Source: Geobacter sp. AOG1
Lineage (GTDB): Bacteria; Desulfobacterota; Desulfuromonadia; Geobacterales; Geobacteraceae
Direction of reading: 5' to 3'
Assembly (NCBI RefSeq): GCF_019972315.1
Contig: NZ_BLIZ01000001.1
Span: 1,624,513-1,688,512 of the forward strand
Length of the DNA: 64,000 nt
The position numbers and the translations under genes are program-made. The notes beneath the pieces were generated by a model that saw only the letters and a program-made list of their open reading frames with translations, did not search any database and was not told the DNA's origin. How positions within the stretch are numbered: position 1 is the first letter of the stretch; each line of letters begins with the position of its first letter. Below are positions 46,920-50,895 of this stretch, one piece after another.

Positions 46920-47603
46920 TTAAGCCATCCACAAGAGATACGCCCCCACAGTAGCGACAACGAATCCGCCGATCCGTTTTGTCCAGGTGGAGAAGTTGAC
47001 GACCCCTCTTGCCTTTACGAACGACTCGACAAAACCGGTGAACGTCCCGGCTGCCAGGATCAGCAGGCAGTGGCCGATGGCGTAAGTGAACAGCAACGTC
47101 GTTCCGTACAACACCCGCCCCTTGGTGGCCACGTAGGTCAGGATCACCACCAGCACCGGTGTTGCACAGGGGGAAGAGACCACTCCGAAGAACAGGCCGA
47201 GGATGAACGAGCCGACCACACCCCCCTGTTTCGGCTTGAAATCACGCTTAACCGGCAGACGGATTTCGTAGAGCCCCATCATCTGTCCTCCCATCACCAG
47301 CGCCACGATACCGGCGGCAACGTACCACCAGCCGCCGACGGTGCCGAACATGGTCCCCAGCAGCCCCGCGGCAGCACCGAAGGCGGTGAAGGTGAGGGAG
47401 AGCCCCAGGATAAATGCCAGAGAATAGCGGAATGCCTTACAGCGGTTTCCTTCGGCATAGCCGCCGACAAAGCCGACGACCAGCGGGATGGTGGCGAGCA
47501 CGCAGGGGGAAGCCGAGGAGATGACGCCGGCAAGGAAAACGGCGCCAAAGGCCAGCAGCGGATAGGCGGCGACGATCTGCTCGATGTTGTCGAGAAAGGT
47601 CAT
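46920..47603 (-). CDS. ccdA: CcdA-type thiol-disulfide transmembrane protein
   Basis: 227 aa with six membrane segments. The two redox cysteines are in the family positions (SSASPCVLATIP and SSPCATPVLVV). Moves electrons from cytosolic thioredoxin to the periplasm. Its ATG overlaps the stop of the secreted thioredoxin gene by 4 bases, so that protein is the likely electron acceptor. Last gene of the arsenic cluster. Confidence 0.9.
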   Translation of the reverse strand: MTFLDNIEQIVAAYPLLAFGAVFLAGVISSASPCVLATIPLVVGFVGGYAEGNRCKAFRYSLAFILGLSLTFTAFGAAAGLLGTMFGTVGGWWYVAAGIVALVMGGQMMGLYEIRLPVKRDFKPKQGGVVGSFILGLFFGVVSSPCATPVLVVILTYVATKGRVLYGTTLLFTYAIGHCLLILAAGTFTGFVESFVKARGVVNFSTWTKRIGGFVVATVGAYLLWMA

Positions 47604-47983
47604 TTAATCCCCAGCGCCTTCAATTCCCTGGTGATTTCGGCCTTCTCCATGAAGCCGATGTGGCGTTTGACCTCTTTCCCCTTGGCGTCGAAGAATATCT
47701 GGGTCGGGATCAACTGAACCCGGAACTTTTCCGCAGCAGCCTGATTTTCATGGACGTCGATGAACAGCACGCTGGCTTTGCTGCGATACTCGCCGGACAG
47801 GGATTCCAGGATCGGCGCCATCTTCTTGCACGGGATGCAGCTGCGCGCCCCCAGGTCAATAACGGTCGGTTTGCCGGAAGAGAGGGCCTGTTTGACAATC
47901 GCATCGGTGGCGGACGGGAGTTCGGCGCGAGCTACCCCGGCAAGCATCAGGATACAGGAAAGGACTGCTATGCAGCGTTTCAT
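47600..47983 (-). CDS. Periplasmic thioredoxin-like protein
   Basis: 127 aa from ATG 47983 after AAAGGAA. Signal peptide of about 20 residues (VARAEL). Thioredoxin fold with active site GARSCIPCKKMAP and cis-Pro segment LIPTQIFFDAKG. Likely kept reduced by the coupled CcdA protein. Role inside the arsenic cluster is not established. Confidence 0.88.
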   Translation of the reverse strand: MKRCIAVLSCILMLAGVARAELPSATDAIVKQALSSGKPTVIDLGARSCIPCKKMAPILESLSGEYRSKASVLFIDVHENQAAAEKFRVQLIPTQIFFDAKGKEVKRHIGFMEKAEITRELKALGIK

Positions 47984-48018
47984 GGATGTTCCTTTCAGTG
48001 GATTGTGTTGGTGAAGCT

Positions 48019-48246
48019 CTATAGCATCCCCATGATCTCCGCTACGGAAGCGACCTTGCCAGAAAACTTCACCTGACCGTCGATCACCAGCGCCGGCGTG
48101 CTCATGACGCCGTACTTCATGATGGATGGTATGTCTTCCACTTTCACCACCTCGGTGCTTGCGCCGCTTTCTTCCACGGCCTTCTTCACGTTCTCGTAGA
48201 GGGTCTTGCATTTTGCGCAGCCGGTTCCCAGTACCTCGATTTTCAT
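48019..48246 (-). CDS. Small thioredoxin-fold protein (redox-active disulfide protein 2 type)
   Basis: 75 aa from ATG 48246 after AAGGAG. MKIEVLGTGCAKCKTLYENV with CAKC at residues 10-13, and GVMSTPALVIDG, match the MTH895/TM0996 family. Cytosolic. It lies 13 bases after the permease gene. In other genomes this small protein commonly accompanies DUF318/ArsP-type permeases, so a thiol role in arsenical handling is inferred. Confidence 0.88.
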   Translation of the reverse strand: MKIEVLGTGCAKCKTLYENVKKAVEESGASTEVVKVEDIPSIMKYGVMSTPALVIDGQVKFSGKVASVAEIMGML

Positions 48247-48259
48247 GTCATATTCTCCT

Positions 48260-49216
48260 TTACAGTAGTGCGTTGAACAGGTAGCCAACGATGACGATAG
48301 CTATTGCAACGATACCAAAGAAGGTTGCCAGGAGCGGTTTCTTCAGTACGTTGCCGAGAATGATCGCTTCCGGCAGGGAGAGGGCGGTTACCGCCATCAT
48401 GAACGCCAGCACGGTGCCGATGGCCATCCCCTTGGCGGTGAGGGCCTGGACGATGGGAATCACCCCCGCGGCATTGGAGTAGAGTGGCACACCCAAGGCC
48501 ACCGCGACCGGAACAGCGAGGGGGTTGTCCCGTCCTGCCCAGCGGGCCAGGAAATCCTGCGGCACGTAGCCGTGGATAAAAGCGCCGATGCCGATACCCA
48601 CAACAACGTAGGGCCAGATCTTCTTCAACAAACCGAGGGTGTAGCCACGGGCATAGGTGAGCCGTTCCGGCCAGCTCTGCTCGGCGATCTCGGCGTTCCC
48701 CACCCGCATCTCCCAGACATAGTCCTGAACGTACTTTTCCATGTTCAGTTTGCCGATGACGATGCCGGCGACGATGGCCACTGCCAGGCCAGTGCCGATG
48801 TAGATGAGGGCGATTCGCCAGCCGAACATCCCCCAGAGCATGATCAGGGCCACCTCGTTGACCATGGGTGATGAGATAAGAAAGGAAAAGGTCACCCCCA
48901 GGGGCACTCCCGACTCCACAAAGCCGATGAATAGCGGCACCGCCGAACAGGAGCAGAAGGGAGTCACAATCCCCAAAAGGGCGGCCATGACGTTACCAAC
49001 ATACTCCCGTTCATGGGAAAGTATTCGCTTGGTCTTCTCCGGAGGAAACCAGGAGCGGATGATGGCGACAACATAGATGATGGTGGACAGAAGGAGAAAT
49101 ATCTTCACCGTGTCGTAGATAAAGAAATGGAGCGCCCCGCCAAGACGGGTTGTTATATCCAGGCCGAGCCATTGCTTTACAATCAGGTCGGCGAACTGTT
49201 CAAGGAATGAAAACAT
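48260..49216 (-). CDS. ArsP/DUF318-type permease
   Basis: 318 aa with eight or more membrane segments. The cysteine motif VTPFCSCSAVPLFIG and the second conserved GVPLYSNAAGVIPIV mark the UPF0718 (DUF318) permease family. ArsP, a trivalent organoarsenical exporter, belongs to this family. The position directly after acr3 supports an arsenical or metalloid substrate. 80 bases separate it from acr3. Confidence 0.85.
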   Translation of the reverse strand: MFSFLEQFADLIVKQWLGLDITTRLGGALHFFIYDTVKIFLLLSTIIYVVAIIRSWFPPEKTKRILSHEREYVGNVMAALLGIVTPFCSCSAVPLFIGFVESGVPLGVTFSFLISSPMVNEVALIMLWGMFGWRIALIYIGTGLAVAIVAGIVIGKLNMEKYVQDYVWEMRVGNAEIAEQSWPERLTYARGYTLGLLKKIWPYVVVGIGIGAFIHGYVPQDFLARWAGRDNPLAVPVAVALGVPLYSNAAGVIPIVQALTAKGMAIGTVLAFMMAVTALSLPEAIILGNVLKKPLLATFFGIVAIAIVIVGYLFNALL

Positions 49217-49296: not shown

Positions 49297-50349
49297 TTAT
49301 GCGGCAGCGAACCAGTGCCGGGTGCGGTTGCAGAAGGAGCAGACCGACAGCATGACCGGCACCTCCACCAGGACCCCCACCACGCAGGCCAGGGCAGCCC
49401 CTGACTCGGGGCCGAAGATGGTGATGGCGACGGCGACGGCAAGTTCGAAGAAGTTGCTGGCGCCGATCAGTGCCCCCGGAGCGGCAACGTTATGGGGAAT
49501 CTTGAGCCATTTCATCAGTCCATAAGCCAGGGATGAGTTGAAATAGACCTGGATGGTGATTGGTACGGCGATCAGCAGCACGTGGAAGAGTCGGCCGGTG
49601 ATGTTGTCGGCCTGGAAGGCGAAGATCAGCACCAGCGTGGCCAGAAGGGCTCCGATTGCCACCGGGTGAAGTTTGGGCAGGAAGGCGTTGTTGAACCATT
49701 CCGGGCCGTGGGATCTGATCAGCACGTTGCGGGTGATGACCCCGGCGGCCAGCGGGATGACGATGAATACAACCACCGAGGTGAACAGGACGCCGAAGGG
49801 GACGATCAGGTTCGATGCGCCGGATACGAGAAATTTGACGATGGGGGCGAAGAACAGCAGCATCAGCAGGTCGTTCACCGAGACCTGCACCAGGGTGTAG
49901 CCGGGATCACCGTCGGTCAGGTAGCTCCAGACAAAGACCATGGCGGTGCAGGGGGCGGCGGCGAGGATGATACTGCCGGCAATGTACTGATCGGCCTCGG
50001 CCGGGGCGATCCAGGGGCTGAATACCAGCCGGAAAAAGAGCCAGGCGAAAAAGGCCATGCTGAACGGCTTGACGATCCAGTTGACGAACAGGGTGACGAA
50101 GAGCCCTTTCGGATTTTTTCCCACATTGGCCACCGAACCGAAATCGACCTTGAGCATCATCGGGTAGACCATGAGCCAGATCAGGACAGCGATGGGAATG
50201 TTGATCTGGGATCCCTGACCAAACTCAAGCCCACGCAGAGATGCCACCGCCTGGGGGGCCGCCTTGCCCAGCGCCACACCAATCACCATGCAGATGGCGA
50301 CCCAGACGGTCAGGTATTTGTCGAAAAAACTCATCTGCTTTTCCATCAT
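49297..50349 (-). CDS. acr3: Arsenite efflux transporter Acr3
   Basis: 350 aa with ten membrane segments. The catalytic cysteine is in AAPCTAMVFVWSYLTDGDP, as in Acr3 of the bile/arsenite transporter superfamily. The region IVKPFSMAFFAWLF and the C-terminal ALIGASNFFELAVAVAI are typical. Exports arsenite driven by the proton gradient. AGGAGCAGGA precedes ATG 50349. Its own upstream gap contains an inverted repeat shared with the arsR promoter (50401-50422). Confidence 0.93.
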   Translation of the reverse strand: MMEKQMSFFDKYLTVWVAICMVIGVALGKAAPQAVASLRGLEFGQGSQINIPIAVLIWLMVYPMMLKVDFGSVANVGKNPKGLFVTLFVNWIVKPFSMAFFAWLFFRLVFSPWIAPAEADQYIAGSIILAAAPCTAMVFVWSYLTDGDPGYTLVQVSVNDLLMLLFFAPIVKFLVSGASNLIVPFGVLFTSVVVFIVIPLAAGVITRNVLIRSHGPEWFNNAFLPKLHPVAIGALLATLVLIFAFQADNITGRLFHVLLIAVPITIQVYFNSSLAYGLMKWLKIPHNVAAPGALIGASNFFELAVAVAITIFGPESGAALACVVGVLVEVPVMLSVCSFCNRTRHWFAAA

Positions 50350-50400: not shown

Positions 50401-50422
50401 TTAATCCGGATTTACGGATTAA
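50401..50422. promoter_or_regulatory. Candidate ArsR operator upstream of acr3
   Basis: Perfect inverted repeat TTAATCCG-N6-CGGATTAA, 52 bases before the acr3 start. Its core ATCCG-N6-CGGAT recurs in the arsR promoter at 50872-50887. Confidence 0.6.
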
Positions 50423-50459
50423 TTCGGGCAAAAAAATTGCTCCAAATCGTCGATGTGTG

Positions 50460-50484
50460 GTGGGGGCGGAGACTCCGCCCCCAC
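50460..50484. repeat. Perfect GC-rich hairpin between arsR and acr3
   Basis: Two 12-base arms GTGGGGGCGGAG and CTCCGCCCCCAC around a single A. In the minus direction a T-run occurs only about 20 bases further on, so termination or attenuation after arsR is possible but not clear. Confidence 0.7.
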
Positions 50485-50517
50485 TCCCAGATTTGGGAAC
50501 TCCGATAATTCCACTCG

Positions 50518-50859
50518 TCAGGCGCAGACATTCCCGCGACTCAACCCGCGAAGTCGCTCAATATCTGACTTTGCCACCGTATTGCCGTGAAAGAAGTGGC
50601 GCAGGATGGGCAGCAGCGACTGCTGGAGTGGGCCGAGCTGTTTGAGAATGGAGTAGTAGATCCATACCCCTTCACGGCGGTCGCGCAGCCATCCCGCATT
50701 CCTGAGGTGGGAAAGATGTCGCGACACGGTGGACTGGGGGAGTTGCAGGACCGCCATCAGGTCGCAGACACAGAGCTCTTCTTCTTCCAGGAGCAGGGCC
50801 AGGACGCGGAGACGGGTTTCGTCTTCGAGGGATTGGAAAATCGTGGCAATGGTTTCCAT
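50518..50859 (-). CDS. arsR: ArsR-family arsenic-responsive repressor
   Basis: 113 aa from ATG 50859. Winged-helix fold with the metal-sensing ELCVCDL motif (Cys30, Cys32) in the recognition-helix region and LQLPQSTVSRHLSHLRNAGWL as the DNA-binding helix. A further cysteine is at the C-terminus (NVCA). Controls the downstream acr3, permease, thioredoxin and ccdA genes. No ribosome binding site precedes the ATG, and the predicted transcription start is at about the A of the ATG, suggesting a leaderless mRNA. Confidence 0.92.
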   Translation of the reverse strand: METIATIFQSLEDETRLRVLALLLEEEELCVCDLMAVLQLPQSTVSRHLSHLRNAGWLRDRREGVWIYYSILKQLGPLQQSLLPILRHFFHGNTVAKSDIERLRGLSRGNVCA

Positions 50860-50866
50860 GACTCGG

Positions 50867-50895
50867 AATATATCCGTACAGGCGGATGAAGTAAA
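50867..50895 (-). promoter_or_regulatory. arsR promoter with embedded operator
   Basis: On the minus strand TTTACT (50895-50890), 17 bases, TATATT (50872-50867). The inverted repeat ATCCG-N6-CGGAT (50872-50887) fills most of the spacer, an ideal place for a repressor to block RNA polymerase. Confidence 0.65.

Follow-up and report, generated by a model that had tools for sequence, protein, structure and literature searches.

Why would an arsenic resistance operon carry one and the same inverted repeat both in front of its repressor gene and behind it, when only one of the two copies is embedded in a promoter? The question is raised by a 64,000-nucleotide stretch of the Geobacter sp. AOG1 genome ("the window" from here on, meaning the whole of the DNA analyzed), in which the exact motif ATCCG-N6-CGGAT is found twice, at sites designated op1 and op2, out of three occurrences in the entire 3.68-Mb genome, the third being located inside a histidine-kinase/receiver gene.

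The arsenic locus and its two inverted repeats

The genes concerned are all encoded on the minus strand and comprise arsR (50518-50859), the start of which is best set at 50859 (METIATIF...), 28 nt from op1; acr3 (49297-50349), the first gene behind op2, which encodes an arsenite efflux transporter according to its TIGR00832 equivalog score (384 bits versus a cutoff of 282.8); a gene for an ArsP_1-type permease (48260-49216; Pfam PF03773, E 3e-80); two genes for thioredoxin-like proteins, one small and of the MTH895/ArsE family (48019-48249; TIGR00412, above cutoff), the other exported (47600-47983; Pfam PF00085, start inferred at MKRCIAVL); and a gene for a CcdA/DsbD-type membrane protein (46920-47603; Pfam PF02683). 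The arsP-thioredoxins-ccdA module (46920-49216) directly follows acr3 in the window, and in same-genus relatives it is preceded by a separate and more divergent arsR paralogue (37-39%). Two same-genus relatives (L129 and L131) have arsC between op2 and acr3, where the window has none, and a search of the whole of the window's own genome with a single ArsC as the query, run without a positive control, returned no arsC match.

The product of arsR is a 113 aa repressor of the ArsR/SmtB family (NCBIfam NF033788, 89.4 bits against a cutoff of 55; Pfam HTH_5; PF01022, 61.4 bits), which carries a CxC motif at residues 30 and 32 and a C-terminal Cys112. When 113 distinct ArsR homologues from the same class (a sample that includes related sequences) are aligned, the CxC pair (Cys30, Cys32) is invariant (113/113) and Cys112 is kept in 109; this pattern suggests that arsenite is bound by the alpha-3 CxC together with the C-terminal tail. 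Assignment to the type 1 ArsR proteins, with their R773 Cys32/34/37 site, was considered and rejected: the CxC is present, but the third cysteine, three residues further on, is missing, its position in the alignment being taken by Met, Ile, Val or Thr.

The first of the two repeats, op1 (50872-50887, ATCCGTACAGGCGGAT), fills the 17-bp spacer of a minus-strand promoter, ParsR, between TTTACT (-35 box, 50890-50895) and TATATT (-10 box, 50867-50872, sharing one base with op1), just as the preliminary description had it when placing the arsR site inside the spacer of a good promoter. Around op1, a position-weight table of 93 class loci likewise shows pronounced -35 and -10 boxes, with a strong TTGAC at the register of the window's -35 box, the promoter scores at op1 being 9.6 for the class and 9.4 for a Nitrospira-centred sample (see below), and in relatives op1 keeps a fixed 27-29 nt from the arsR start codon. 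Palindromic, with a 6-nt gap and overlapping the promoter, op1 has the form of an ArsR/SmtB-type operator, and ArsR is predicted to bind it. The second candidate operator, op2 (50401-50422), extends its core (50404-50419, ATCCGGATTTACGGAT) to 8-base arms (TTAATCCG-N6-CGGATTAA) and lies between arsR and acr3, at 98 nt from the stop of the former and 54 nt from the latter. Both repeats, with their identical half-sites, their 6-base gaps and the 8-base arms of the acr3 site, had been reported in the preliminary description and were found again by the motif search.

Conservation of the sites and exchange of their half-sites

Could two short palindromes of this kind simply be alike by chance? With 10 fixed bases, ~3.5 random matches per genome are to be expected, and a genome scan for a wider regulon, allowing for one mismatch, gave 26 sites versus 11 for the reversed pattern; among these, the exact 10-base core was seen only at acr3, at arsR and within the kinase gene. 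Chance, however, is refuted by conservation and can be given practically no weight: 40 loci from relatives (~12 kb each, 467 kb altogether) hold 39 exact sites versus 0.45 expected, almost all of them being op1 or op2, and shuffled post-arsR regions produce a match with at most one mismatch in 0.8% of cases. At this tolerance, op1 is present in 93 of the 113 class homologues (56 exact) and op2 in 76 (54 exact; an effective number of 62 after down-weighting), the latter being located just behind the arsR stop and ahead of arsC, acr3 or arsP. The preliminary description had proposed the repeat as a shared operator for this ArsR subtype and had named its absence upstream of orthologous genes as the outcome of a motif scan that would speak against this; within the class, the motif turned out to be retained both in front of arsR and behind it, with an alternative half-site at these positions in samples centred on two other phyla.

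These two samples (which likewise include related sequences, and the phylum labels of which, Nitrospira and Methylomirabilis, rest on loci L016 and L026) carry ATCAA-N6-TTGAT, found at 52/53 op1 and 53/53 op2 positions in the former and at 27/28 op1 and 20/28 op2 positions in the latter, where a few starts are uncertain. The half-site is common to the two sites within each sample: 63 class loci have ATCCG/CGGAT at both and none has a mixed pair, ATCAA/TTGAT is found at both in 52 of the 53 Nitrospira-sample loci, and a class locus with ATTC/GAAT changes (L145) has them at both, these half-site comparisons being between lineages rather than between independent events within one tree. The ATCAA-N6-TTGAT operators of ArsR/SmtB proteins have the same 5-6-5 layout and the same ATC...GAT ends as the window sites, whereas the clade of the window has CG for AA in each half-site and LPQSTVSRHL for QSRLSFHL in the ArsR recognition helix, which differs in step with the half-site, the former helix being that of the class and the latter that of the Nitrospira sample. 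Such a joint change at op1 and op2 points to one protein reading both as DNA, and, since op1 lies upstream of the transcript, the common sequence must be read as DNA. ArsR would be the obvious reader; judging from this comparative evidence, both ATCCG-N6-CGGAT sites are almost certainly real ArsR operators, and op2, taken by itself, is one with very high probability. An RNA hairpin formed by op2 was ruled out as a candidate, given that its half-site is shared with op1, which ParsR does not transcribe.

Several loci elsewhere show other arrangements. In L178, L179, L180, L202 and L234, arsR is followed by a GAPDH-like gene (MSIRIGINGFGRMG), with op1 present and op2 absent, and a Clostridia-type arsR (L066) has ATATGGATTTTCATAT 18 nt after its stop, which hints that this layout may recur with yet another, third type of half-site. 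None of the 80 acr3 loci taken from many phyla contains the exact ATCCG motif, which is accounted for by acr3 moving between operons and by the arsR genes there being of other subtypes; the most similar acr3 (90%, L004) lies behind arsC and lacks a preceding arsR.

A probable operator with a T-tract and no promoter

What, then, could op2 be doing behind arsR? The preliminary description had expected "separate" repression of acr3, that is, two promoters with an ArsR operator each (ParsR with op1 and a Pacr3 with op2), which would suit the common half-site and the location of op2 in the gap before acr3, as well as three exceptional class loci (L197, L188 and L163) where op2 lies within a good promoter and op1 has been lost. 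The second repressed promoter, however, did not materialize, either in the window or generally in its relatives: no sigma-70-like promoter was found on the coding strand of the arsR-acr3 gap of the window (best score of 6/12 versus a shuffled mean of 7.6), no -35 or -10 box overlaps or adjoins op2, and position-weight tables of 76 class and 53 Nitrospira-sample loci lack any -35 and -10 conservation around it. The promoter scores at op2, which presuppose sigma-70-type boxes, are at or below those of shuffled sequences (6.64 versus 6.81 in the class and 6.42 versus 6.99 in the Nitrospira sample), the shuffles here and in the hairpin comparisons below keeping only base composition. Furthermore, in the Nitrospira sample, 34 of 46 loci have the following gene's Shine-Dalgarno sequence starting no more than 10 nt behind op2, leaving no room for a promoter that would have op2 as its spacer and serve that gene, and a Pacr3 of its own is thus deemed unlikely. 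An antisense promoter at op2, prompted by the look of some loci, was likewise dropped, its mean score being below that of shuffled sequences. Retention of op2 with loss of op1 was observed in L188, L197, L163, L160, L154 and L198, some of them having op2 inside a good promoter, an arrangement that would uncouple arsR expression from that of the efflux genes, as in the feedback-uncoupled reporters of PMC3918153.

A feature absent from the preliminary description of the acr3 site is a T7 tract on the minus strand (50430-50436; U7 in RNA reading through from arsR), which stops 10 nt short of op2. T-runs of at least five precede op2 in 57/76 class, 48/53 Nitrospira and 20/20 Methylomirabilis loci, and their ends lie at a mean of -10.2 (sd 0.87), -10.4 (sd 0.84) and -10.2 (sd 0.40) relative to op2, respectively, while runs of this kind are seen in 14/93 of the regions before op1, which served as the control. 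Relative to the arsR stop, by contrast, the position of the tract is variable (class sd, 32); even in the window, where this stop is 98 nt away from op2, the T7 and op2 are again 10 nt apart. Class loci without op2 are mostly without the tract (present in 8/37, versus 57/76 of those with op2; Fisher p 8e-8), several of the 8 showing a decayed op2. The tract is found on one side of op2 only, and its sense strand is predominantly T, which is what would be expected of an element acting on an approaching polymerase. About ten class loci (e.g., L156, L164 and L182), on the other hand, have AAAAAAATTT in place of the T-run, which fits an A/T-rich DNA element better than a U-tract and is a real complication for an RNA-based reading.

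Might the tract be the tail of a classical hairpin-dependent terminator ending arsR, with the adjacent op2 serving another purpose? Some class loci (e.g., L151, L155 and L165) have a GC-rich stem of 6 bp in the final arsR codons, right before U8, class hairpins before the tract are slightly stabler than shuffled ones (-4.5 versus -2.9, p 0.013), and in the window the 98-nt gap between the arsR stop and op2 holds a strong hairpin, the GC-rich perfect inverted repeat GTGGGGGCGGAG-A-CTCCGCCCCCAC (50460-50484), so an ordinary partial terminator is possible there. This hairpin, however, stops 23 nt short of the T-tract, and hairpins in the Nitrospira (p 0.39) and Methylomirabilis (p 0.83) samples equal shuffled ones. 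With only a slight advantage over shuffled sequences in one of the three samples, the hairpins argue against an ordinary terminator, i.e., a GC-rich hairpin directly before a U-tract: the U-tract is there, and the hairpin is inconsistent over the three samples. As the distance of the tract is, moreover, fixed to op2 and not to arsR, and as loci tend to have both the tract and op2 or neither, a classical terminator is considered quite improbable. The 50460-50484 repeat is not conserved (same-genus relatives have a different sequence there); as it occurs in a single copy in the genome, it was rejected as a dispersed repeat.

Cooperative binding of ArsR to op1 and op2, with a DNA loop around arsR and the A/T tract serving as a bend or an accessory contact, would agree with one repressor having two sites a few hundred bp apart and with a tract that is A/T-rich and sometimes A-rich. 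Yet the op1-op2 spacing varies widely within the genus (408, 468, 587 and 617 bp), the tract occurs only on the promoter-facing side of op2, and ArsR/SmtB proteins are generally dimers, all of which makes looping very unlikely.

A possible roadblock behind the repressor gene

The layout of op2, a predicted operator of the same repressor that is promoterless and lies inside the transcribed unit, downstream of its start, is that of a roadblock. The favoured reading, judged reasonably probable, is that op2 is an intercistronic roadblock to readthrough from ParsR until arsenite frees ArsR, perhaps with the aid of the U-tract. ArsR bound in the ParsR spacer, at op1, would block initiation, making arsR autoregulated, and ArsR on the promoterless op2 would be a roadblock for those polymerases that have got past op1 and transcribed arsR. 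Roadblocked E. coli polymerase has its active centre ~14-18 bp upstream of the protein-bound site, and a stall at this distance from op2 would put the active centre on the T-tract, which would thus be the site of the RNA 3' end; the weak rU:dA hybrid, perhaps together with Mfd, Rho or backtracking, may then favour release or arrest. Arsenite on ArsR would free op1 and op2 together and let readthrough reach the efflux genes, the outcome being that, without induction, acr3 would be kept very low while arsR is expressed at a basal level, and the unit under such two-level control would be arsR-acr3-permease-thioredoxins-ccdA. Action of op2 on readthrough appears likely, and the case for the U-tract aiding release is evenly balanced.

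Precedents exist for parts of this scheme. In E. coli reporters, the background falls when an additional ArsR site is placed behind arsR (PMC3918153; PMC5116461), ArsR itself has been named among roadblock proteins (PMC10310618), and in Chlamydia, transcripts reading through from trpR are ended by YtgR bound between trpR and trpB (PMC6504234), all of which favours two-level repression, i.e., initiation being repressed at op1 and elongation at op2. In the engineered E. coli arsR-ABS circuits (Stocker 2003, as represented in the citing papers PMC3918153, PMC10310618 and PMC5116461), a promoterless ArsR site lies, as op2 does, between arsR and the target gene and cuts uninduced expression by roadblocking; as these papers present them, the circuits are man-made, with the E. 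coli operator upstream of its promoter and with no fixed-distance T-tract, whereas the present layout occurs in nature and is conserved in all three of the phylum-level samples. YtgR of the Chlamydia trachomatis trpRBA operon is likewise an intergenic repressor behind a regulator gene that ends transcripts from an upstream promoter, but it is an iron sensor, is not encoded by the gene upstream and has an internal promoter as a further target of repression (PMC6504234), whereas here the operon's own repressor is proposed to act at both levels and no internal promoter was seen. LacI, CcpA, CodY, PurR and GalR, too, stall elongating polymerase from downstream of a promoter, with termination by Mfd, and no conserved U-tract at a set operator distance is described for them in the two papers concerned (PMC10310618, PMC4132739). 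Roadblocked complexes are ended mainly by Mfd, and an influence of the sequence preceding the block is expected (PMC4132739).

No description of the natural op1/op2 arrangement was found in the openly accessible literature, so a prior description is possible; the parts are of known kinds, and it is the conserved combination that would be new. More tentatively, and with doubt prevailing, the T-tract and the operator may together constitute a distinct regulated terminator, i.e., a hairpin-less U-tract for which a ligand-controlled repressor ~10 bp downstream replaces the hairpin, as a module occurring in at least three phyla with its half-site matched to the local repressor.

If the roadblock reading is true, the strict spacing of the T-tract would amount to a simple, testable rule for hairpin-free termination by a DNA-bound repressor, and matched repressor-operator pairs (LPQSTVSRHL/ATCCG and QSRLSFHL/ATCAA) would be supplied, along with ready-made low-leak parts for arsenic sensors. 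It would also serve as a warning that many operators downstream of genes need not mark promoters. Most importantly, nature would then be using the trick of biosensor engineers, in which a second repressor site behind the repressor gene silences a leaky target.
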